A stretch of 64,000 nt of DNA from Chloroflexota bacterium (GTDB taxonomy: Bacteria; Chloroflexota; Anaerolineae; J036; Brachytrichaceae): assembly GCA_023382055.1 (NCBI GenBank), contig JAMCQN010000177.1:1-64000 (forward strand). The letters run 5' to 3'. Positions 21,645 to 49,513 of this stretch are shown piece after piece. The notes beneath the pieces were generated by a model. The model saw nothing but the letters and a program-made list of their open reading frames with translations, did no database searches and was not told the origin of the DNA. A program made the translations under genes and the position numbers. The number at the start of each line of letters is the position of its first letter. Position 1 is the stretch's first letter.

Positions 21645-23291
21645 ATGAAAACAAGCCGCCGCTCCACAGCCTTTGTCCGCCCCTCTGTAGTCTTCTCTCC
21701 CAACCTGGTTGATGGCATTAACATGATGGCGAATGCGGTCAAGCCGACGTTAGGGCCGTTGCCACGGACAGTGGGCATTGAGCGCATTGATCGGGCGCGC
21801 ATGCCCGAATTGTTGGACGATGCCGGGATTATCGCGCGCCGGATCATCCAGATTGAAGATCCAACGGCCAATGTTGGCGCGATGATGCTGCGCCACGGCA
21901 TGTGGCGCATGCACGAAAGGCTGGGCGATGGCGCTGCCACGATGGCCATTCTGACGCAGGCTATCGTGCAGCATGCTCTAAAAGGCGTTGCGGCAGGAAT
22001 GCATCCCATGCAGTTGCGGCGCGGCATAGAGAAGGGCGCGAATGCGGCAGTCGAGGCATTGCGAGAGGGTGCGCGCCCATTGCCGCCTGGCAAAGCAGGT
22101 CGCGAGATGCTTACATCGCTGGCGTATTCACTTTCTGCTGACAAGGAACTCATGGATGCCATCGTGGCCATAGTGTTCAACATAGGCGGCGACGGCGCTG
22201 TGGAATTGGTGGTAAACGAGCGCCGCACGGTTGATTACGAATTCGTCGAAGGCGCGGTGGGGAACTCCGGGTGGATTTCGGCGGTTTATGCCACAGACAA
22301 GGCGAAGACTACTGCAAGGCTGGAGGATGCGGCGGTCATCATACTCGCGGGCGCAATTGAGACCGCTCAGCAGGCTATTCAAGGGATTGAAAAACTGGCT
22401 GCGCTGCAGATACGGCGTGTCGCTTTGATCGTGAACGGGGTCAGCGAAGAAGCGCAACACGTCTTTACTCATGTGCACCTGCGGGGCGAGATGCGGTTTA
22501 TCCTGATCAAGTCGCCGCATATAGACGCAGAACAGTTGATTGCGCTGCACGATATCAGCGCCTTAACCAGCGCGCGCGTGCTTTTCGACGTCGGCGAATT
22601 CATGACCCTTAAGCCCGCAGACGTAGGGTTTGCGCGGCGTATCTGGTCGACCTCAATCAAATCCGGCATCATCGGTGGCAGGCGTGAAGGCAATACATTG
22701 CGCGGCAGAATTCAACTGGTGCGTGATGCAATTGCCGGGTTTAACGACAAGAAGGAGTGGGACCAGTTGGACAAATTGCGTTGGCGGCTGGCGCAACTCA
22801 CCGGTGGAATCGCGGTTTTGCAGGTGGGCGCTTTGACAAGTTCACTGGCCGATACACGTAAGGAACACGCGCAACGGCTGATCCATGTGCTTCAGTCGGC
22901 GGTCGGCAGTGGGGTTGTGGCCGGAGGCGGCGCCGCTTTGCTCGGGTGTGCGTTGGCTGTTGAGCAAGCGGCCAGGCGATGCGTGCAGGGTGATGAGCAA
23001 TATGGCGCCCGCTGCATAGCACAGGCATTGAGCGCCCCTTTGGCGGTGCTGGCGTATAACGCCGGTTATGAGCCTGCGCCGACGCTTTCCAGGGTCAAGC
23101 GCGCTAAAGCCGGGCATGGCTTCGATGTGCGCTCTGGTCAGGTAGTTGATATGTGGGACGCGGGTATTGTCGACTCGCTGCCCGTGGTCGAGAGAGCGAT
23201 TCAGACGGCTGCCAGTGTGGGAGCGATGACAATCACCACCACAGCCGTGGTGCATCAGCGCAAGAGTTACCCCGGACCTGTTGTGCCGTAG
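21645..23291 (+). CDS. Divergent GroEL-like chaperonin paralogue
   Basis: 548 residues, GroEL length, and alignable end to end: NMMANAVKPTLGP, RLGDGAATMAILTQAI, KGVAAGMHPMQLRRGIEKG, GVVAGGGAALLG and ASVGAMTITTTAVV match equatorial and intermediate landmarks. It departs where ATP is bound and cleaved: GDGTTT is GDGAAT (94-99), TLGPKGR is TLGPLPR, and the position of E. coli GroEL Asp398 is Arg411 by my alignment. Asp59 may keep the Asp52 role. The Gly/Met-rich tail is missing. No groES is adjacent. It is therefore probably a specialised chaperonin paralogue rather than the housekeeping GroEL. It is divergent from rex across a 192-base gap. Confidence 0.88.
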   Translation: MKTSRRSTAFVRPSVVFSPNLVDGINMMANAVKPTLGPLPRTVGIERIDRARMPELLDDAGIIARRIIQIEDPTANVGAMMLRHGMWRMHERLGDGAATMAILTQAIVQHALKGVAAGMHPMQLRRGIEKGANAAVEALREGARPLPPGKAGREMLTSLAYSLSADKELMDAIVAIVFNIGGDGAVELVVNERRTVDYEFVEGAVGNSGWISAVYATDKAKTTARLEDAAVIILAGAIETAQQAIQGIEKLAALQIRRVALIVNGVSEEAQHVFTHVHLRGEMRFILIKSPHIDAEQLIALHDISALTSARVLFDVGEFMTLKPADVGFARRIWSTSIKSGIIGGRREGNTLRGRIQLVRDAIAGFNDKKEWDQLDKLRWRLAQLTGGIAVLQVGALTSSLADTRKEHAQRLIHVLQSAVGSGVVAGGGAALLGCALAVEQAARRCVQGDEQYGARCIAQALSAPLAVLAYNAGYEPAPTLSRVKRAKAGHGFDVRSGQVVDMWDAGIVDSLPVVERAIQTAASVGAMTITTTAVVHQRKSYPGPVVP

Positions 23292-23324
23292 GCCGTTTTT
23301 TGGCCGATATTTGGCCGCGGACTG

Positions 23325-23353
23325 TTGCAGCCTGATTGATCGTTCGTTATGAT
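23325..23353 (+). promoter_or_regulatory. Sigma70-like promoter of the sugar ABC operon
   Basis: TTGCAG (23325-23330), a 17-base spacer and TATGAT (23348-23353). The predicted start is near 23360, leaving a leader of about 74 bases with GGAGGAG before the ATG at 23434. Confidence 0.6.
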
Positions 23354-23359
23354 AATAAT

Positions 23360-23375
23360 AGGTTGACCACAACCT
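23360..23375. promoter_or_regulatory. Candidate operator of the sugar ABC operon
   Basis: A perfect 6-4-6 palindrome, AGGTTG-ACCA-CAACCT, lies exactly over the predicted transcription start. This position suits a repressor such as a LacI-family sugar regulator, but no regulator gene is adjacent. Confidence 0.4.
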
Positions 23376-23433
23376 CTCGTTTTCGTCTTATGTTGCCCGC
23401 CATGTCTTACCATAATCGCAGGAGGAGTGCCAA

Positions 23434-24873
23434 ATGATACATAAATCCTTTAACCGACGCAAGTTCCTAAAAGCAGCCTTTTTAGGGACCGCTGCGACAG
23501 CTTTGGCTGCGTGTGCTCCACAGACAGTGACAGTCGAAGTGACTCGTCAAGTTGAAAAGCAGGTTGAGGTAACCAAGGAAGTCGTCAAAGAAGTCGAAAA
23601 GAATGTGGAAGTCACTAAGGAAGTGATTAAAGAAGTCGCCGTTACGGCCGTCCCGGTGGAACTGAAAGGCGAACTGACTGTCTGGGGCCATGCCGATCAC
23701 CCCCTCGATAATGCCGGCCAGGCCTTTATGGCCAAAAATCCTGGCGTTAAATTTACCTTCGTCGGTGAAGATGGATGGGACAAGAAGGTAGAAGCAGCGC
23801 TTGCGGCTGGCAGTGGTTTGCCTGATATGGTGTGGTACGAGGCCGATGCGACACAGGTAGCAGCACGCCGTGGCATCCTGTTAGACGTAACGGAAATGGT
23901 CAAAAAGCACGAGAGTGAACTAGTACCATCCAAGCTTGCCGAAGCCCGTTACCAGGGTAAGTACTACGGTATGCCTGGCGATATCACACCTAATAACTAC
24001 TGGTATCGTACAGACATCACTGAAAAAGCAGGCGCCAAAGATATCAATCCCGATATTAAGTACGACGAGTTCCTGCAATTATCGAAGGATGTTAAGGCCA
24101 AGACCGGCGCCAGTATGTACGTTATGAACTCCAACTTCACTGGCCAGGGAATTCTGCCATTCCTGGTTCCGCACTACTCACTGGGCGGTAATGTCTCTGA
24201 TGAAAGCGGAGAGAATATCGTCATCGACAATGAGATCGGTCAGCAGGCAATGAATTATGCCAAACAGGCCTGGGATTTGAAAGCCGGTCTGGATGCAGAC
24301 TGGTTCTCACCGCCTTACTGGGGCGCCATAAAGGAAGGTAAACTGGGTGGTACCTGGTCTCCGCCCTGGATGCGCGGTTTCTTCGAGACTGAAGTCACCT
24401 CGCCTGAGAGAGGCCAGGGAAAGTGGCGGAACATGCTGGTGCCGGCCTACCCGGGCGGTAAAGCGCGCTGCAATGTATGGGGAGGCGCAACGCTGTGTGG
24501 ATTTAAGACAGTCAAGGATCCAGCGTTGGTGATGGCCTACATGGAATATACTTTCGCCTCGATCGAAGGCGCAACAGTCACTGGCAACTGGGGCATCATA
24601 CCCCCATATCTCCCGTGGCTGAAAGGTTATTTTAAGCTGACCAAGGCATCGCTTTTCGAGCCGACCTGGGACTGGACCGGGCAGATTGTGAAAGCGCTGG
24701 ATCAGATGCGCACAGACTTTTACCGATTGCCCGCCTATGGCGTCATGATGGGCAGTCTGGATAAGTTCGGACTGCCGATGCTCAAGGGCGAGAAACCCAT
24801 CAAGGATGGCATGCAGGAGTGGGGTGACTACATCCGCGCAGAGAACAAGAAGCTGCTCGAAGCGATCAAGTAA
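23434..24873 (+). CDS. ABC transporter sugar-binding lipoprotein
   Basis: 479 residues. Extracytoplasmic solute-binding protein of the carbohydrate (MalE/UgpB-like) family. The N-terminus has a twin-arginine-like RRKFLK (8-13) and a lipobox LAAC (Cys27), so it may be exported folded and lipid-anchored. Residues 31-70 form a Val/Glu/Lys repeat linker (VEVTKEVVKEV and variants) that is a hallmark of Chloroflexota binding proteins. The binding domain follows (LTVWGHADHPLDNAGQAF, GLPDMVWYEAD). It is the first gene of an importer operon with two permeases and faces a mannonate-dehydratase-like gene, which suggests uronate or related sugars; this is inference. Confidence 0.95.
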   Translation: MIHKSFNRRKFLKAAFLGTAATALAACAPQTVTVEVTRQVEKQVEVTKEVVKEVEKNVEVTKEVIKEVAVTAVPVELKGELTVWGHADHPLDNAGQAFMAKNPGVKFTFVGEDGWDKKVEAALAAGSGLPDMVWYEADATQVAARRGILLDVTEMVKKHESELVPSKLAEARYQGKYYGMPGDITPNNYWYRTDITEKAGAKDINPDIKYDEFLQLSKDVKAKTGASMYVMNSNFTGQGILPFLVPHYSLGGNVSDESGENIVIDNEIGQQAMNYAKQAWDLKAGLDADWFSPPYWGAIKEGKLGGTWSPPWMRGFFETEVTSPERGQGKWRNMLVPAYPGGKARCNVWGGATLCGFKTVKDPALVMAYMEYTFASIEGATVTGNWGIIPPYLPWLKGYFKLTKASLFEPTWDWTGQIVKALDQMRTDFYRLPAYGVMMGSLDKFGLPMLKGEKPIKDGMQEWGDYIRAENKKLLEAIK

Positions 24874-24916
24874 CGCCTGCTCACTAACAGGGACACGGTA
24901 TTAGTCTTTTTGGTTC

Positions 24917-24972
24917 AACCGCCAAGGCGCTAGGTATTCGTCGAACACTGACGCTCTTGGCGGTTTGTTTTT
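24917..24972 (+). terminator. Intra-operon terminator/attenuator
   Basis: Ten-bp perfect arms AACCGCCAAG (24917-24926) and CTTGGCGGTT (24956-24965), extendable by GCG pairing inside, are followed by TTGTTTTT. It lies between the binding-protein gene and the first permease. It probably lets only part of the transcripts continue, keeping binding protein in excess. Confidence 0.75.
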
Positions 24973-24986
24973 GGCGAGTGATCCAA

Positions 24987-25952
24987 ATGGCGAAAAGCGT
25001 CCAGGCATCTTCATCATTAAAAAACCCGATCATAAGGCCTAAGCGTAATTTGCGTCGTCTATTAGCTGAAATGTGGCGGCATCGGGTCGATTACCTTTTC
25101 ATTTCACCATTTTTTATACTGTTCCTCATTTTCGGCCTCTATCCATTGCTGTTTGGCATCCAGTTGAGCTTCTCACGCTGGCAGCCAGGTAAAGATATGG
25201 TCTTTATTGGCCTGGACAATTACAAGACTTTACTCTTAACCGACCCGGAACTAAAGCAGGCGCTGCTCAACACCATCGTCATGCTGCTCTGGATTCTGCC
25301 GACAGGACTGGGGGGCGCGCTTGTGCTCGCCGTCATGCTGAATGCACGCAAACTGGTGGGGCGCAGCTTTTTTCGCACACTTTTCTTCCTGCCATTTGTC
25401 ACCTCGCAGGTCATTGTCTCATTCGTGTTCCAGTCATTGTTGGATAAGGATTATGGTTGGGTGAACCTGCTTATGGGCCTCGTGGGTATCCCACCAATTC
25501 CATGGTTGACGCAGACGTTCTGGGCTCAGATATCAATTACCCTCCTGTTGCACTGGATGGGCATGGGCACCAACATACTGATCTTTTTAGGTGCACTGCA
25601 AGCCATCGACCGGGAGTTATATGAGGCGGCGGAGATTGATGGCGCCACTGCTACACAGCAGTTCTTCAATGTAACCTTTCCGATGATCCGTCCGGTGATG
25701 CTCTTTATGATTATCACAGCCACGATTGGCTTGATGAACCTGTACGCCCCGGTGGTTTTGTTGACTAATGGCGGTCCCGGCGGCACGACGTTGACGCTGT
25801 TCATGCGCATGATTCAACTTATGACCAGTATCCGTTATGGTGAGGGCGCTGGGTTTGGATTCATCATCGGCGGCATTATTCTGCTAATCACACTAGTGCA
25901 GATGAAGTTCCTGAGCAGTTGGTGGACGGTCGAAGGCAAGTTAAAGCAGTAA
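24987..25952 (+). CDS. Sugar ABC transporter permease (MalF/UgpA-like)
   Basis: 321 residues with six predicted membrane helices. The cytoplasmic EAA loop that contacts the ATPase is clear: EAAEIDGATATQQFFNVTFP, beginning near residue 213. The N-terminus is a basic cytoplasmic stretch. I take ATG 24987; the frame starts upstream at 24957 inside the attenuator stem, which makes that start unlikely. It partners the second permease 69 bases downstream and the binding protein upstream. No ATPase gene is present in the operon. Confidence 0.93.
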   Translation: MAKSVQASSSLKNPIIRPKRNLRRLLAEMWRHRVDYLFISPFFILFLIFGLYPLLFGIQLSFSRWQPGKDMVFIGLDNYKTLLLTDPELKQALLNTIVMLLWILPTGLGGALVLAVMLNARKLVGRSFFRTLFFLPFVTSQVIVSFVFQSLLDKDYGWVNLLMGLVGIPPIPWLTQTFWAQISITLLLHWMGMGTNILIFLGALQAIDRELYEAAEIDGATATQQFFNVTFPMIRPVMLFMIITATIGLMNLYAPVVLLTNGGPGGTTLTLFMRMIQLMTSIRYGEGAGFGFIIGGIILLITLVQMKFLSSWWTVEGKLKQ

Positions 25953-26021
25953 TAATGGTTTAGAGCATCTGCATGTCTAAACAGGATGCTACGGATAGCG
26001 CTAAAACCGAAAGAGGTAAGT

Positions 26022-26951
26022 ATGGCGACGACGATATCGGTTCAGCCAAAGACAAAACAGCTAGTGACTCGAAAGAGCTGGAATATACGTCGAAGGCTTG
26101 GGTATATTCTTCTGTACATATTCCTGATACTCCTCTCTGTCGGCTTCTTCTTCCCTTTCTACCAGATGGCCATTGGGTCTCTGATGCCCAAAGAAGAGTT
26201 ATTTAAACTCTACCCACAATTATGGCCACCGGGCGGGCCAACGCTGCGGGCGTATCTACTGCTATTGCACATTGAGCCGCCGACAAATATGGCTTACCTG
26301 GCCAATTTCCATATTTTACGTTACGTCGGAAACTCTTTGCTCATGGCCACTGTAGCAGTTCTTATACAGGTGTTCTTCAACACCATGGCTGGCTACGTAT
26401 TTGCCAAGCGCAGCTTCCCGTTCAAAAATCAACTATTCAGCATGATCCTGGTGACATTGCTATTGCCCACTGCAATCAACTTTGTGCCATTTTTTATTTT
26501 GATTGGCCGACTAGGCTGGATGAATACTTATTTACCGTTCTGGATTCCTGGCGCCGCCACGGCATTCGGTATTTTCCTGATGCGGCAGTTCATAGTAGCA
26601 ACCATCCCGGATGAGATCATCGACTCGGCTACCATCGACGGGGCATCGCAGTTTCAGATTCTCACGCGCCTGGTCATGCCTATCATGACCGGTGGGATGG
26701 TGGTATTGGCGATTCTTAGCTTCGTTGGCGTTTACAATGAATTCGTGATGTCGTCACTCATTCTGACAAATCCCGACACCCGTACGGTACAGGTAGCATT
26801 GGCGAACTTTTTGAAATCCAACATCCGTGCGCCGAACTATGATTTGTTGTTTGCTGGAAGTGTGATGGCCACGATTCCCCTGTTAGTCGTATTCTTCGTC
26901 TTCCAGCGCCAGATCATGGAAGGTGTAATGTCAGGCGCGATAAAAGGCTGA
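26022..26951 (+). CDS. Sugar ABC transporter permease (MalG/UgpE-like)
   Basis: 309 residues, six membrane helices. The EAA-type loop reads DSATIDGASQFQILTRLVMP; the usual Glu-Ala-Ala is Ser-Ala-Thr here, which is common in MalG-type partners. The start at 26022 has GAGGT five bases upstream; the frame continues to 25986 without a good site. It is the last gene of the importer operon and is closed by a bidirectional terminator. The ATPase must come from elsewhere in the genome, as in MsmX/MalK-type shared ATPases; this is inference. Confidence 0.93.
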   Translation: MATTISVQPKTKQLVTRKSWNIRRRLGYILLYIFLILLSVGFFFPFYQMAIGSLMPKEELFKLYPQLWPPGGPTLRAYLLLLHIEPPTNMAYLANFHILRYVGNSLLMATVAVLIQVFFNTMAGYVFAKRSFPFKNQLFSMILVTLLLPTAINFVPFFILIGRLGWMNTYLPFWIPGAATAFGIFLMRQFIVATIPDEIIDSATIDGASQFQILTRLVMPIMTGGMVVLAILSFVGVYNEFVMSSLILTNPDTRTVQVALANFLKSNIRAPNYDLLFAGSVMATIPLLVVFFVFQRQIMEGVMSGAIKG

Positions 26952-26997
26952 CCGACTGATACTGACGAATAGGAAAGCAAGCGAATAGGTTGACAAG

Positions 26998-27032
26998 AAA
27001 AAGGACGGGTGATAAAGCACCTGTCCTTTTTT
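26998..27032. terminator. Bidirectional intrinsic terminator
   Basis: A 14-bp stem (26998-27011 with 27018-27031, one G-T pair) and a 6-nt loop, with a T run on each strand. It serves both the permease gene and the convergent mannonate-dehydratase-like gene. Confidence 0.9.
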
Positions 27033-45762: not shown

Positions 45763-46434
45763 CTAACCCAGCCCAACCTCCGTGTCTGTATCCTCATCGC
45801 CGGCGCTGCCTGCCTGCTTCTCTCTTTCCAATCTGGTAATAACTTCCTGAATAACGTCGTAACCATAACCATTGCGTGCCAGGTATTCACCCAGCTTGCG
45901 TTTGCGATCGCCGACTTCCGTCAATTTCTCTATCCTGGGCCAGCGCTTCAATGCCAACTGATACGCGCTTGCCTCATCGTCAACGCCGGCAAGCGACGCG
46001 TCGATGCTGGACTCGCTGACACCCTTCTGCCTCAGCTCCCATGCGATCATGCGTTTGCTGCGGGGGGTGGCGCCGAGTCTGCTTTCGACCCATGCCTTGC
46101 TGAACGTTTCGTCATCGAGCAGACCCGCCGCGCGCAAGCTGGTTACAACCTCATCGATGGTTTCTACATCAACTCCTGCGCGTTTCAACCGATGTTGCAC
46201 TTCCGATACGCTGCGCGGGCGGTACGAAATCAAACCCAGCGCCCGCTGTCTGGCTTTCTCCAGCGTATCGGCTGCCTGCAACTCAGTGATTTCCGCGTCG
46301 GTCAGGTGCTGGCCGACCCTCAGCCATAAGGCGTGAATCAGCGCCAACCCGAACGCATACTCGCCGTCCAGGTAAACATTGATCCGGTCTTTCGACCTCG
46401 CCTGGGCTTTTAAGGCCGTTATCGTTCCTGCCAT
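45763..46434 (-). CDS. recX: Regulatory protein RecX
   Basis: 223 residues. RecX binds RecA filaments and limits recombination. The three-helix tandem repeats are visible: ALGLISYRPRSVSEVQHRL, GLLDDETFSKAWVESRL and RSKRMIAWELRQKGV, followed by KRKLGEYLARNGYGYDVIQEV. recA is not adjacent, although the two are often neighbours. The ATG at 46434 is preceded by only three bases and a T7 tract that ends a strong hairpin, and there is no ribosome binding site. Expression must therefore start inside or just after that terminator, or depend on read-through of it. Confidence 0.93.
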   Translation of the reverse strand: MAGTITALKAQARSKDRINVYLDGEYAFGLALIHALWLRVGQHLTDAEITELQAADTLEKARQRALGLISYRPRSVSEVQHRLKRAGVDVETIDEVVTSLRAAGLLDDETFSKAWVESRLGATPRSKRMIAWELRQKGVSESSIDASLAGVDDEASAYQLALKRWPRIEKLTEVGDRKRKLGEYLARNGYGYDVIQEVITRLEREKQAGSAGDEDTDTEVGLG

Positions 46435-46437
46435 ACG

Positions 46438-46494
46438 AAAAAAACACGGCTGTAACACGACTCGCTGCGACTAAAAGCGAATCATTACAGCCGT
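46438..46494 (-). terminator. Strong intrinsic terminator abutting the recX start codon
   Basis: Perfect 10-bp arms (46446-46455 and 46485-46494) extend inward by a second stem of about 9 bp with two wobbles. On the minus strand the hairpin is followed by seven T (46444-46438), then CGT and the recX ATG. It probably ends the transcript of the upstream rRNA/tRNA modification operon. Confidence 0.88.
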
Positions 46495-46887
46495 CTCAGA
46501 TATCAGAATATGAAATGGTATCGCCGACTAGATCAGGCGACTCCTGTTCACCAGATCACGCCGCGGACAGTTGAATATGGGAAAAGACCCCACATTCAAT
46601 ACACCGGAACTACCGGTCGAGTGCTTCACAATCATTTGCCAACAACATTATGGTGATGAACGACACACAATACACCTGTTAGCGGCATATCTGCACGTTG
46701 CACTGCCAGCTTCTGTATGACTTTGAAGCGTTTTAGTTGCTCGTCCCCAAAGCCAACACCTGTCATTTCATCTATTCTTAACATCAGGCACTTAGCCTGA
46801 CGGTAAATCCTCAACGCGCTGTAACAAACCGTCTTTAGGTAGACAACGCACTTATTAAAATACGTTAACAATTATAAACAGATTTTC
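46495..46887. other. Gene-poor AT-rich gap with small hairpins and a doubtful ORF
   Basis: Between the methyltransferase stop and the recX terminator there are 393 bases that are visibly richer in A and T than the surroundings. Small inverted repeats occur at 46571-46599 (TTGAAT.TGGG arms) and 46603-46617. A 79-codon minus frame at 46632-46871 contains EQLKRFKVIQKLAVQRADM, faintly like the N-terminal segment of some transposases (LKVIQ...R.T), but it lacks the helix-turn-helix that should follow. It may be a decayed insertion sequence remnant, or chance. No tRNA or known RNA signature was found. Confidence 0.4.
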
Positions 46888-47697
46888 TCAGGCTGACCGC
46901 GTATCGATGAGAAATACCAGTTCAGTGGGAAACTCGAACTGACTTATTGTCCAGTCTTTGTTTTTCGAATGTTGGATGAACTGCTTTTCATAATGTGCAA
47001 GCATCCCCCTGGAGTGTCCGCATAGGCTTTGCAAAGGATAGGTTACGACCAGATAGTTTGCTTTGATCGTCTCAAGGAGATGATGACCTGCCGTTTTGTC
47101 GACCTGTTCGAGACAGGGGATTGTCTTGAGGATAAACGCCAGATCCACGGGCTGTTCAAAAGGATTCGCATCCAGCACGCTTGTGGCTGACGTCACCCCA
47201 TCGTAACCCAGCAAGGCGATCGATGATCGGATGAAGGCGATCATATCTTCGTAGATATCAATTGCGTAGTAGATTGTGCCACGTTGAAGTCCCATCCAGG
47301 GTATGGCTAACGGATTGAAGCCACAGGCAACGTCCAGTATGGAGGCAACCGGTGGAATCGCGCTGAAGATGGTGTCGTAGAAGCGATCAAGGTCGCCCAG
47401 GCGTTCGCGGGTAGAGGAATGGAAGGACATAATGCGCCGGCATGTGTCGCGGATATCGTCACGACTGCCTTCCGTTGCCTGCCGTATCTCATCCAGCCAC
47501 ATGTCGTACGACGGATTGCCATCCAGGTATGCGCCACCCACCTGGTGCAATTTGTTCCTGGTGGCCTTGACGGCTTCTTTGTAACTGTTGCGTTTGGCTA
47601 GTTCCCGCGCGCCCAGGCTGCGGATAAAATCACTGGCAACATAGCGATATTTGCGGGTTGCTTTTATATCAGTGACAAGATCATCGAGTTCCGCCAT
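46888..47697 (-). CDS. 16S rRNA (guanine-1405-N7) methyltransferase-like protein, aminoglycoside-resistance family
   Basis: 269 residues, the size of the ArmA/Rmt/FmrO family, which methylates N7 of G1405 in helix 44 and gives high resistance to 4,6-disubstituted deoxystreptamine aminoglycosides. Resemblance runs the whole length: IKATRKYRYVASDFIRSL (11-28), ATRNKLHQVGGAYL (45-58), FHSSTRERLGDLDRFYDTIF (92-111), the SAM loop ILDVACGFNPLAI (120-132), KTIPCLEQ (191-198), GHSRGMLAHYEKQF (227-240) and FPTELVFLI (256-264). Base composition is lower in GC by eye than the flanks, a possible sign of transfer. It lies three bases after a tgt-like gene and appears to be in one operon with rsmI. Resistance itself is inferred, not shown. 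Confidence 0.87.
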   Translation of the reverse strand: MAELDDLVTDIKATRKYRYVASDFIRSLGARELAKRNSYKEAVKATRNKLHQVGGAYLDGNPSYDMWLDEIRQATEGSRDDIRDTCRRIMSFHSSTRERLGDLDRFYDTIFSAIPPVASILDVACGFNPLAIPWMGLQRGTIYYAIDIYEDMIAFIRSSIALLGYDGVTSATSVLDANPFEQPVDLAFILKTIPCLEQVDKTAGHHLLETIKANYLVVTYPLQSLCGHSRGMLAHYEKQFIQHSKNKDWTISQFEFPTELVFLIDTRSA

Positions 47698-47700
47698 GAT

Positions 47701-48792
47701 TTATGTCGTCGCATTCAGTTTAGCCATTAGCATGGCCATAAAGCGCAGGTTATGTATCGTAGCGAGTCGGAAAAACGCGCTGTCGTTGATTTTGTAAAGA
47801 TGGTGCAGGTAGCCCAACGAATAACGCGTACAGCACAGACAGTCGCACCATGGACTGATCGGGCGATTGTCTTTGATGTGTTTGTCATCACTGATATAAA
47901 CATAAGCGAACCAATCATCGCTCAATTCACGCCGTAGAGCTGGATCGCTGTTGAACGTGTACAGGCGCGCGTGGCGGGCATCGCGGGTTGGCATCGCACT
48001 GTCGAACAGGCGATAACCAATCTGCGTGCAGGCGACGATGCTGGGCGGGTGCCCGATGCCCAGTGCATGCATAGGGTATTCGGATGGGATGATCTCGCGG
48101 GTATAGCCGACGATATCGGTCAGCAGGTTCCCCTGGTTGTCGATCGGCCAGCCGCCGTATCCGTAGCCGTCGAAGCCGATTTCGAGTAATGCATCTGCGC
48201 AGCGTATACGTTCCTCCCGGATGCTGCCGCCCTGCACCACGCCGAACAGCAGCGGGCGCTGCCCATCGGCGTATTCTTTTTGCTCGATCAGCCGTGTATA
48301 AGCCTCTTTACAACGGCGCGCCCATGCAATCGTGCGCGTCACGGACTCTTTCTGTGTGTCGATTGGGTCTTCGGCATTGGTGCAATCATCCAGGCAGATG
48401 ACGATGTCAGAGCCGTAGCTGACTTGCAGTTGTATCGTTTTCTCCGGTGTGAGTTGCAGTTTCCTGTCCGACCCTTCCGGACGGAAGATAATGCCCTGAT
48501 TGTTCAGGCTGCCGTTTTTTGGATTCTGCCGGATGAGCGAGTAGGCTTGGAATCCGCCGGAGTCGGTGACAATCGGGTGCGGCCAGCCCGACATGCGGTG
48601 CAATCCGCCCAACGCCTGCACGGTGGAGGACCCCGGGCGCTGCATCAGATGAAACGTATTCATCACCAGTGCCTGCGTGCCGCAGCGCTCCAGGTCGGCG
48701 CTATCCAGCGAGCGCACGACACCCAGTGTGGCATCCGGCAGGAATGCGGGGATATCCAGGTCGCCATGTGGAAGATGCAGTTGGCTACTCAT
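47701..48792 (-). CDS. Divergent tRNA-guanine transglycosylase-like protein
   Basis: 363 residues. Family enzymes exchange guanine-34 of GUN-anticodon tRNAs for a 7-deazaguanine. Catalytic Asp77 (TDSGGFQ) and nucleophile Asp264 ([15 protein letters not shown]) are present, as is the zinc site: Cys316, 318, 321 (CDCLCC) and His347 (IHNL). The base-recognition segment after GVVQGG differs: the usual GGLxVGE is GGWPIDN (213-219). Substrate preference may thus differ from preQ1; it could also be a paralogue beside a normal tgt. The ATG at 48792 overlaps the rsmI end by 8 bases, so translation is probably coupled. A longer frame to 48861 overlaps rsmI further and is unlikely. Confidence 0.88.
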
Positions 48793-49513
48793 TTTCCACC
48801 GAGGTATCGTCACTCTCTGGTCGGGCGGCGGCCTTGCGACGCTCCGCAGGCGAGCCGGCAATCACGATCGTGTATTCGCCTTTCAATTCCATGCCTTTCA
48901 CACTCTCAAGCAGTTCAGATAATGTCCCGCGCCGTACCTGTTCAAACATCTTGGTCAAGTCGTTTGCCAGCGCCGCGCGCCGGTCGCCATACACGGCCAG
49001 CGCATCGACCAGGAATTCCTCCAGGCGGAAGGGGCTTTCATAGAAAATCAGGGTGTGAGGAGAGTCCCTGTCGATGTCGAAGAAGCGCCGCCGGGCAACC
49101 GACTTGCGCGGCGCGAAACCGCGAAAGGTGAATGCGTGCAGCGGCAAGCCGGATAGAACCAGCGCCATGATGAGCGCGCTGGCGCCGGGGATCATTGTCA
49201 CCGGGATGCCATTTTCAATGGCATGCCGCACCAGCGTAAAGCCGGGGTCGGACACGCCAGGTGTGCCGGCGTTCGTCACCAGGGCGACCGTCTGGCCCTG
49301 CTGCAACAATGACAACAGTTTACGTCCAGCCGACTGCTCATTGTGCTCGTGAAACGAAACCTGGGGCTTCTGGATATCGAAGTGCTTCAGGAGCAGGCCG
49401 GTTTTGCGGGTGTCCTCGCTGGCGATGATATCCACGCTGCGCAGCGTGTCGAGCGCGCGCAACGTAATATCCCCGAGATTGCCGATGGGCGTAGCGATCA
49501 GGTAGAGCGTCAT
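48785..49513 (-). CDS. rsmI: 16S rRNA 2'-O-ribose C1402 methyltransferase RsmI
   Basis: 242 residues. Methylates the ribose of C1402 in helix 44 of 16S rRNA. Tetrapyrrole-methylase-fold motifs are clear: [18 protein letters not shown] at the N-terminus, [28 protein letters not shown], and FYESPFRL. The C-terminus is hydrophilic and ends overlapping the tgt-like start. First gene of the minus-strand modification operon, divergent from mfd. Confidence 0.96.

Follow-up and report, generated by a model that had tools for sequence, protein, structure and literature searches.

A divergent tRNA-guanine-transglycosylase paralogue paired with FmrO-family 16S rRNA methyltransferases in Chloroflexota and on clinical plasmids

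The main finding of this work is a pair of genes. In a Chloroflexota chromosome, a gene for an FmrO-family 16S rRNA methyltransferase (rmt) stands directly behind a gene for a divergent tRNA-guanine-transglycosylase paralogue (tgt2, protein TGT2), and the two are tied together across the phylum and recur on clinical plasmids. The methyltransferase adds one more member to a family already known; its partner was overlooked in the preliminary description of this DNA. Rmt, as an m7G1405-type enzyme, and TGT2 probably belong together functionally, as an ancient pair at work on the translation apparatus, and the phylum-wide tie, together with the plasmid carriage, suggests an older function in common at the ribosome decoding site. 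The genes concerned lie within the window, by which we mean the whole analysed stretch of 64,000 nucleotides:

46888..47697, minus strand: rmt, FmrO/Arm-Rmt family 16S rRNA (guanine1405-N7)-type methyltransferase, 269 aa with an ATG start (PF07091, Sgm match, invariant residues)
47701..48792, minus strand: tgt2, divergent tRNA-guanine-transglycosylase paralogue, 363 aa (TGT fold, own clade, GGWP signature)
48785..49513, minus strand: rsmI, 16S rRNA (cytidine1402-2'-O)-methyltransferase, 242 aa, first gene of the operon (TIGR00096 225 bits, cut-off 167.9)
45763..46458, minus strand: recX, conserved downstream neighbour with RecX domains, a synteny marker with no part in the mechanism

The genes rsmI, tgt2 and rmt are co-directional, with the spacing of translational coupling: the ATG of tgt2 overlaps the rsmI stop by 8 nt, and 3 nt separate the end of tgt2 from the start of rmt. 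Downstream of rmt are recX and then RNase Y, while mfd lies upstream and is divergent. In L122, L125, L126 and L133, too, recX follows rmt at a distance of 200-430 bp, and rsmI stands directly upstream of tgt2 in 24 of the 78 loci that extend far enough to show it. It had been proposed that rmt sits in a chromosomal operon with housekeeping rRNA/tRNA modification genes. The chromosomal location and the tight operon with rsmI hold, but the tgt gene is a divergent second TGT, the housekeeping Tgt being encoded on another contig. The 429-bp intergenic stretch from rmt to recX (46459-46887) is low in GC (44.5%) and has no assigned gene, and a second low-GC stretch (48-53%) is present at 23000-27000 of the window, with ORFs at about 23416-26948.

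The identity of the methyltransferase is the firmest part of the reading. A full-length resemblance to ArmA/Rmt/FmrO proteins had been noticed by eye, and it is borne out: the open reading frame is exact, and the matches to PF07091 and to solved structures run from end to end. PF07091 (Pfam FmrO) scores 180.9 bits (E 3.9e-53) against a gathering cut-off of 27 bits, with residues 14-262 covering profile positions 2-254 of 255. Over the whole length of the protein, the best solved-structure match is Sgm (165 bits), followed by RmtB (108), the RmtF-type 6pi9 (84) and RmtC (72). The four segments first singled out, FHSSTRERL, ILDVACGFNPLAI, KTIPCLEQ and GHSRGMLAHYEKQF, are all found in Rmt. In a 20-row alignment of relatives and plasmid RmtB2, RmtD1, RmtE2 and RmtG, all 12 family-invariant columns, including the SAM loop, are kept (H51, H93, S95, E98, R99, D122, C125, P129, D147, K191, P221, E259). 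By profile, structure matches and alignment, the SAM and catalytic motifs of the full-length protein are intact. The general NCBIfam Rmt model, NF000466, gives 214.9 bits (E 1.2e-63), below its curated cut-off of 250, and the protein also falls under the cut-off of every NCBIfam Rmt subfamily model; pipelines using the NF000466 threshold would therefore leave it unnamed as Rmt. That cut-off serves the naming of known resistance alleles, and it lowers the case for a "named Rmt", not that for membership of the FmrO family. The genome's own 16S rRNA has the standard target, CGCCCGTCAC with G1405, and also AAGTCGTAACAAGG. Judged from family membership, m7G1405-type chemistry is very probable for this enzyme.

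TGT2 is not the only Tgt of the cell, a possibility ruled out by the canonical copy on the other contig: PF01702 gives this copy 516 bits and the window copy 304. Phylogenetic analysis of 106 proteins places 82 rows in a TGT2 clade, which long branches and a support of 100 set apart from 24 canonical Tgt rows. The clade contains the window copy and also the plasmid TGT copies that accompany rmtB2, rmtD1, rmtE2 and rmtG. By Z. mobilis numbering, TGT2 keeps D102, S103, D156, Q203, G230, the nucleophile D280 and the zinc ligands C318/C320/C323/H349. Across 20 diverse members, V45D, G46A, K52R, F155L, L231W, A232P and other changes are without exception, and E235 is missing. The preQ1-pocket motif GGL[A/S]VGE has become GGWP[L/I] (GGWPIDN in the window copy), with GGWP in 20/20 rows and W215 and P216 also invariant in a 37-row alignment. 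In Z. mobilis TGT, we take residues 231-235 to contact the 7-substituent of preQ1 and V45 to line the ribose pocket. The changes at these sites therefore make it likely that both base choice and RNA placement have been altered. The whole clade also carries a 4-residue insertion in the SL-IRQNP loop and an RNA-facing insertion of about 15-20 residues after PTRDARHGRLY, and has lost the C-terminal helix. An identification with DpdA, the DNA 7-deazaguanine transglycosylase, is ruled out (NF041059 gives 19.9 bits, cut-off 200).

The association of the two genes was assessed by searching the same 400 Chloroflexota genomes with FmrO and with a TGT2 profile, a comparison confounded by phylogeny and MAG incompleteness. 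The FmrO family is present in 77 of the 400, and is thus native to the phylum and widespread there. TGT2 is present in 70, every one of them rmt-positive, and in 0/323 of the rmt-negative genomes by the profile search; the association has a Fisher p of about 1e-70, uncorrected for phylogeny. The profile separates well, positives scoring at least 338 bits and the next matches, which are canonical, at most 325 bits. Seven rmt-positive genomes lack a full TGT2 match. In two (G053, G301), the extracted locus shows part of a TGT2 next to rmt, and two (G107, G274) have rmt at a contig end. The TGT2 profile finds nothing in G176, G228 and G382, which are free of contig-edge problems, and Rmt may therefore work alone. 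Divergent Rmt homologues without TGT2 were seen in L048 (from G176) and in L195, a Patescibacteria MAG; no TGT of any kind was found in the L195 genome, so that Rmt can occur alone.

Thirteen families contain both states, present and absent, and rmt and TGT2 come and go together. The two genes are on one contig with the nearest rmt copy about 320 kb from TGT2 in G372, on different contigs in six genomes (G144, G230, G198, G094, G041, G330), and 6-9 kb apart in G166, G323, G335 and G341. Since they are found together even when non-adjacent, linkage alone cannot explain the pattern, and hitch-hiking by linkage only is ruled out. Among 140 non-redundant loci, 93 have tgt2 at most 300 bp upstream of rmt and 10 have it at most 300 bp downstream; adjacency therefore outlasts inversion of the order. 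Pairwise identities of Rmt and TGT2 are correlated (r = 0.82; in a Mantel test, 0/999 permutations were as high), although shared species history alone would give some correlation. Beyond the phylum, the pair is present in two of three Eiseniibacteriota genomes and, unlinked, in one cyanobacteria-labelled MAG (1/146 sampled genomes of that phylum), which may be mis-binned.

Some Chloroflexota loci hold further relatives of these enzymes. In certain Anaerolineaceae (L043, L047, L050-L053), a divergent second RsmI heads the module (L043:5072-5896; TIGR00096 188 bits in L043), and a better-scoring rsmI stands apart, on the opposite strand, 4-6 kb off. A second Rmt-like gene, R2, occurs at L043:7794-8612 and in L047, L050-L053, L121, L124, L142, L161 and others, often near the first rmt, and directly downstream of it in many Anaerolineaceae and some other Chloroflexota. 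The 27 R2 rows form one clade in the Rmt tree (support 100) and differ in the stretch that follows the conserved Lys (FKEAHRMEKRQPG). The R2 sequences suggest a different target or a helper role.

The pair is also found on clinical plasmids. A protein search of plasmids with TGT2 returned copies at 46-51% identity on plasmids of Klebsiella, Enterobacter, Escherichia and Providencia, compared with roughly 35% for canonical Tgt. Six plasmid loci were read for gene order, with the following arrangements:

rmtB2 locus: tgt2, metallophosphoesterase, rmtB2
rmtG locus of pKP13f: rsmH, tgt2, rmtG, rsmI fragment
rmtG locus of pEc09 (L056, NZ_MH325468.1): rsmH (broken), tgt2 and rmtG, the region repeated in tandem
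rmtD1 locus: rsmH fragment, tgt2, rmtD1
rmtE2 locus: truncated tgt2, rmtE2

No tgt2 was found beside rmt at the ArmA, RmtC, RmtF1 and RmtB1 plasmid loci. Resistance by m7G1405 therefore does not need tgt2, as the ArmA, RmtC, RmtF and RmtB1 loci do without an adjoining copy. The RmtB1 and RmtB2 loci have a downstream antiporter gene in common, which makes it probable that tgt2 was lost from the RmtB1 locus. Reports on rmtD are said to mention a tRNA ribosyltransferase. A "putative tRNA ribosyltransferase" upstream of rmtG has likewise been mentioned, uninterpreted (PMC3904158). This one-line remark was all that a search of the open-access literature returned on G1405 methyltransferases of Chloroflexota or on an association of rmt with TGT, which is weak evidence, as subscription papers are mostly outside its scope. 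No paper in the searchable literature was found to describe or explain, as a general rule, that Rmt and TGT2 are paired, how strict the pairing is, or that it has persisted on clinical plasmids.

We propose that the native chromosomal module would modify the 30S decoding site. RsmI would 2'-O-methylate C1402, Rmt would methylate N7 of G1405, and TGT2 would put a 7-deazaguanine-type base in place of a guanine in the same part of the RNA, its target being most plausibly 16S helix 44 and not tRNA position 34. The common logic would be that Rmt and TGT2 both act on the guanine N7 face read by 2-deoxystreptamine drugs, Rmt by blocking N7 of G1405 with a methyl and TGT2 by replacing N7 with carbon at another guanine. 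The specific target nucleotide is speculative; in view of A-site structures, G1494 would be a candidate. The native benefit, as we infer it, would be drug tolerance or a tuning of decoding. The obligate tie of TGT2 to Rmt and the recurrent RsmI and RsmH point to one substrate region, helix 44. The modification m7G1405 removes the contact of G1405 N7 with 4,6-DOS drugs (PMC12933310). According to Lioy et al. 2014 (cited in PMC12406665), C1402 is closed to RsmI by ArmA, so that it makes sense for these enzymes to be coupled. Bacterial TGT tolerates non-tRNA RNA, and labelled preQ1 bands that are possibly 16S have been mentioned (PMC8136771), so that an rRNA substrate for TGT2 is reasonable, if somewhat short of an even chance. 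In its full form, our tentative reading is that TGT2 may be an rRNA-guanine transglycosylase that writes 7-deazaguanine into the 16S decoding site as the obligate partner of the m7G1405 enzyme; the clinical rmt genes would in that case be remnants of an A-site modification system that is older and comprised two to four enzymes.

Canonical TGTs act on tRNA, and a changed tRNA specificity of TGT2 is about as likely as an rRNA substrate. TGT2 could well be a tRNA-acting TGT of changed tRNA or base specificity, whose link to Rmt would come from a tuning of tRNA and A site together for decoding, and not from an RNA substrate in common. The fold of the AlphaFold model (mean pLDDT 94.2) is that of Z. 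mobilis TGT, from which it deviates by about 1.7 A (about 1.6-1.9 A) on superposition, and the NCBIfam Tgt equivalog model is passed, though barely (309.8 bits, cut-off 306.75). Canonical Tgt is also present in 69/70 TGT2 genomes against 245/330 others (a hand count, confounded by phylogeny), an excess compatible with TGT2 needing a base from the queuine pathway. Against this stand the two insertions and the loss of the C-terminal helix, all of them clade-wide, and the recurrent operon partners, RsmI and RsmH, which are 16S and not tRNA enzymes.

A direct action of TGT2 on G1405 after Rmt, with m7G taken out and guanine or 7-deazaguanine put in, would render the mark reversible or convert it. 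Cationic m7G is a good leaving group, the absence of TGT2 without Rmt would be explained, and the pocket changes lie on the 7-substituent side (L231W, A232P). We nevertheless regard this as improbable, as we know of no TGT that takes m7G, tgt2 is truncated beside rmtE2, and the rmtG and rmtD1 loci, whose tgt2 is apparently intact, are known for high-level resistance, so that the methyl mark is not efficiently erased there.

Also improbable is a recent arrival of rmt in this Chloroflexota lineage as an ordinary resistance gene of the self-protection or reservoir kind. Its GC is low, and in the closest pairs the Rmt similarity falls about 2 sd below the value expected from TGT2. On the other side, the sister lineages are identical for Rmt and TGT2, the synteny is shared, the family is spread over 77/400 genomes, no match was found in viral contigs (IMG/VR), and no aminoglycoside biosynthesis genes were noticed in the surroundings. 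The lower GC first judged by eye is confirmed: rmt has 51.5%, the third lowest value among 45 long ORFs of the window, whose median is 58.9%. The transfer it was taken to hint at does not follow: GC is low in L126 as well (53.2%) and not low in L122 (58.0%), and the hint is outweighed by both gene trees and by synteny. A tree of m7G1405 enzymes had been proposed as a check, and in it the window Rmt groups with the Chloroflexota L122 and L126, as TGT2 does in its own tree (supports 99 and 99), both relatives having rsmI upstream and recX downstream as in the window; rmt was therefore inherited within Chloroflexota. The plasmid Rmts form a separate branch outside the Chloroflexota clade, so that Chloroflexota are ruled out as direct, immediate donors of the clinical genes. 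The suggestion of a reservoir for resistance is not supported on this point, but the same tgt2-rmt module came along.

The Rmt-TGT2 pair bears on where the G1405 methyltransferases, which now defeat most aminoglycosides, came from and what their native role is. A strict and old pair on chromosomes and clinical plasmids suggests that m7G1405 arose within ribosome modification, and not only in drug defence, and tgt2 offers a marker for tracing rmt donors. Should TGT2 act on rRNA, a classical tRNA enzyme family would gain a new RNA substrate, and the aminoglycoside site could perhaps be altered by a second route. The pair is carried by several cultured Ktedonobacteria, among them Dictyobacter kobayashii, Ktedonosporobacter rubrisoli, Tengunoibacter tsumagoiensis and Thermosporothrix hazakensis, and the native role is therefore directly testable.

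Compared with known systems, the window Rmt is like the Arm/Rmt/FmrO enzymes (Sgm, ArmA, RmtA-H) in its full-length alignment, invariant residues and PF07091 match, and differs in being chromosomal, native to Chloroflexota, nearly always accompanied by TGT2, and short of the NCBIfam equivalog threshold (214.9 against 250). TGT2 shares with bacterial Tgt (Z. mobilis, E. coli) the fold, the zinc site, D102/D280 and the base-binding D156/Q203/G230, but is only about 35% identical and is set apart by GGWP[L/I], V45D, two insertions, the missing C-terminal helix and a clade of its own. RsmI and RsmH (m4Cm1402) belong to the same helix 44 neighbourhood; RsmI is elsewhere normally a stand-alone housekeeping gene, whereas here it heads the operon, and the module of some Anaerolineaceae includes a divergent additional copy of rsmI. 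The plasmid units of rmtG (pKP13f), rmtD1, rmtE2 and rmtB2 resemble the window in having tgt2 directly before rmt, with the metallophosphoesterase between them in rmtB2, and in the rmtG unit RsmH and the RsmI fragment around rmtG are again C1402 enzymes. They differ in that their Rmts form their own branch, tgt2 is truncated by rmtE2, and rsmH is broken in pEc09.
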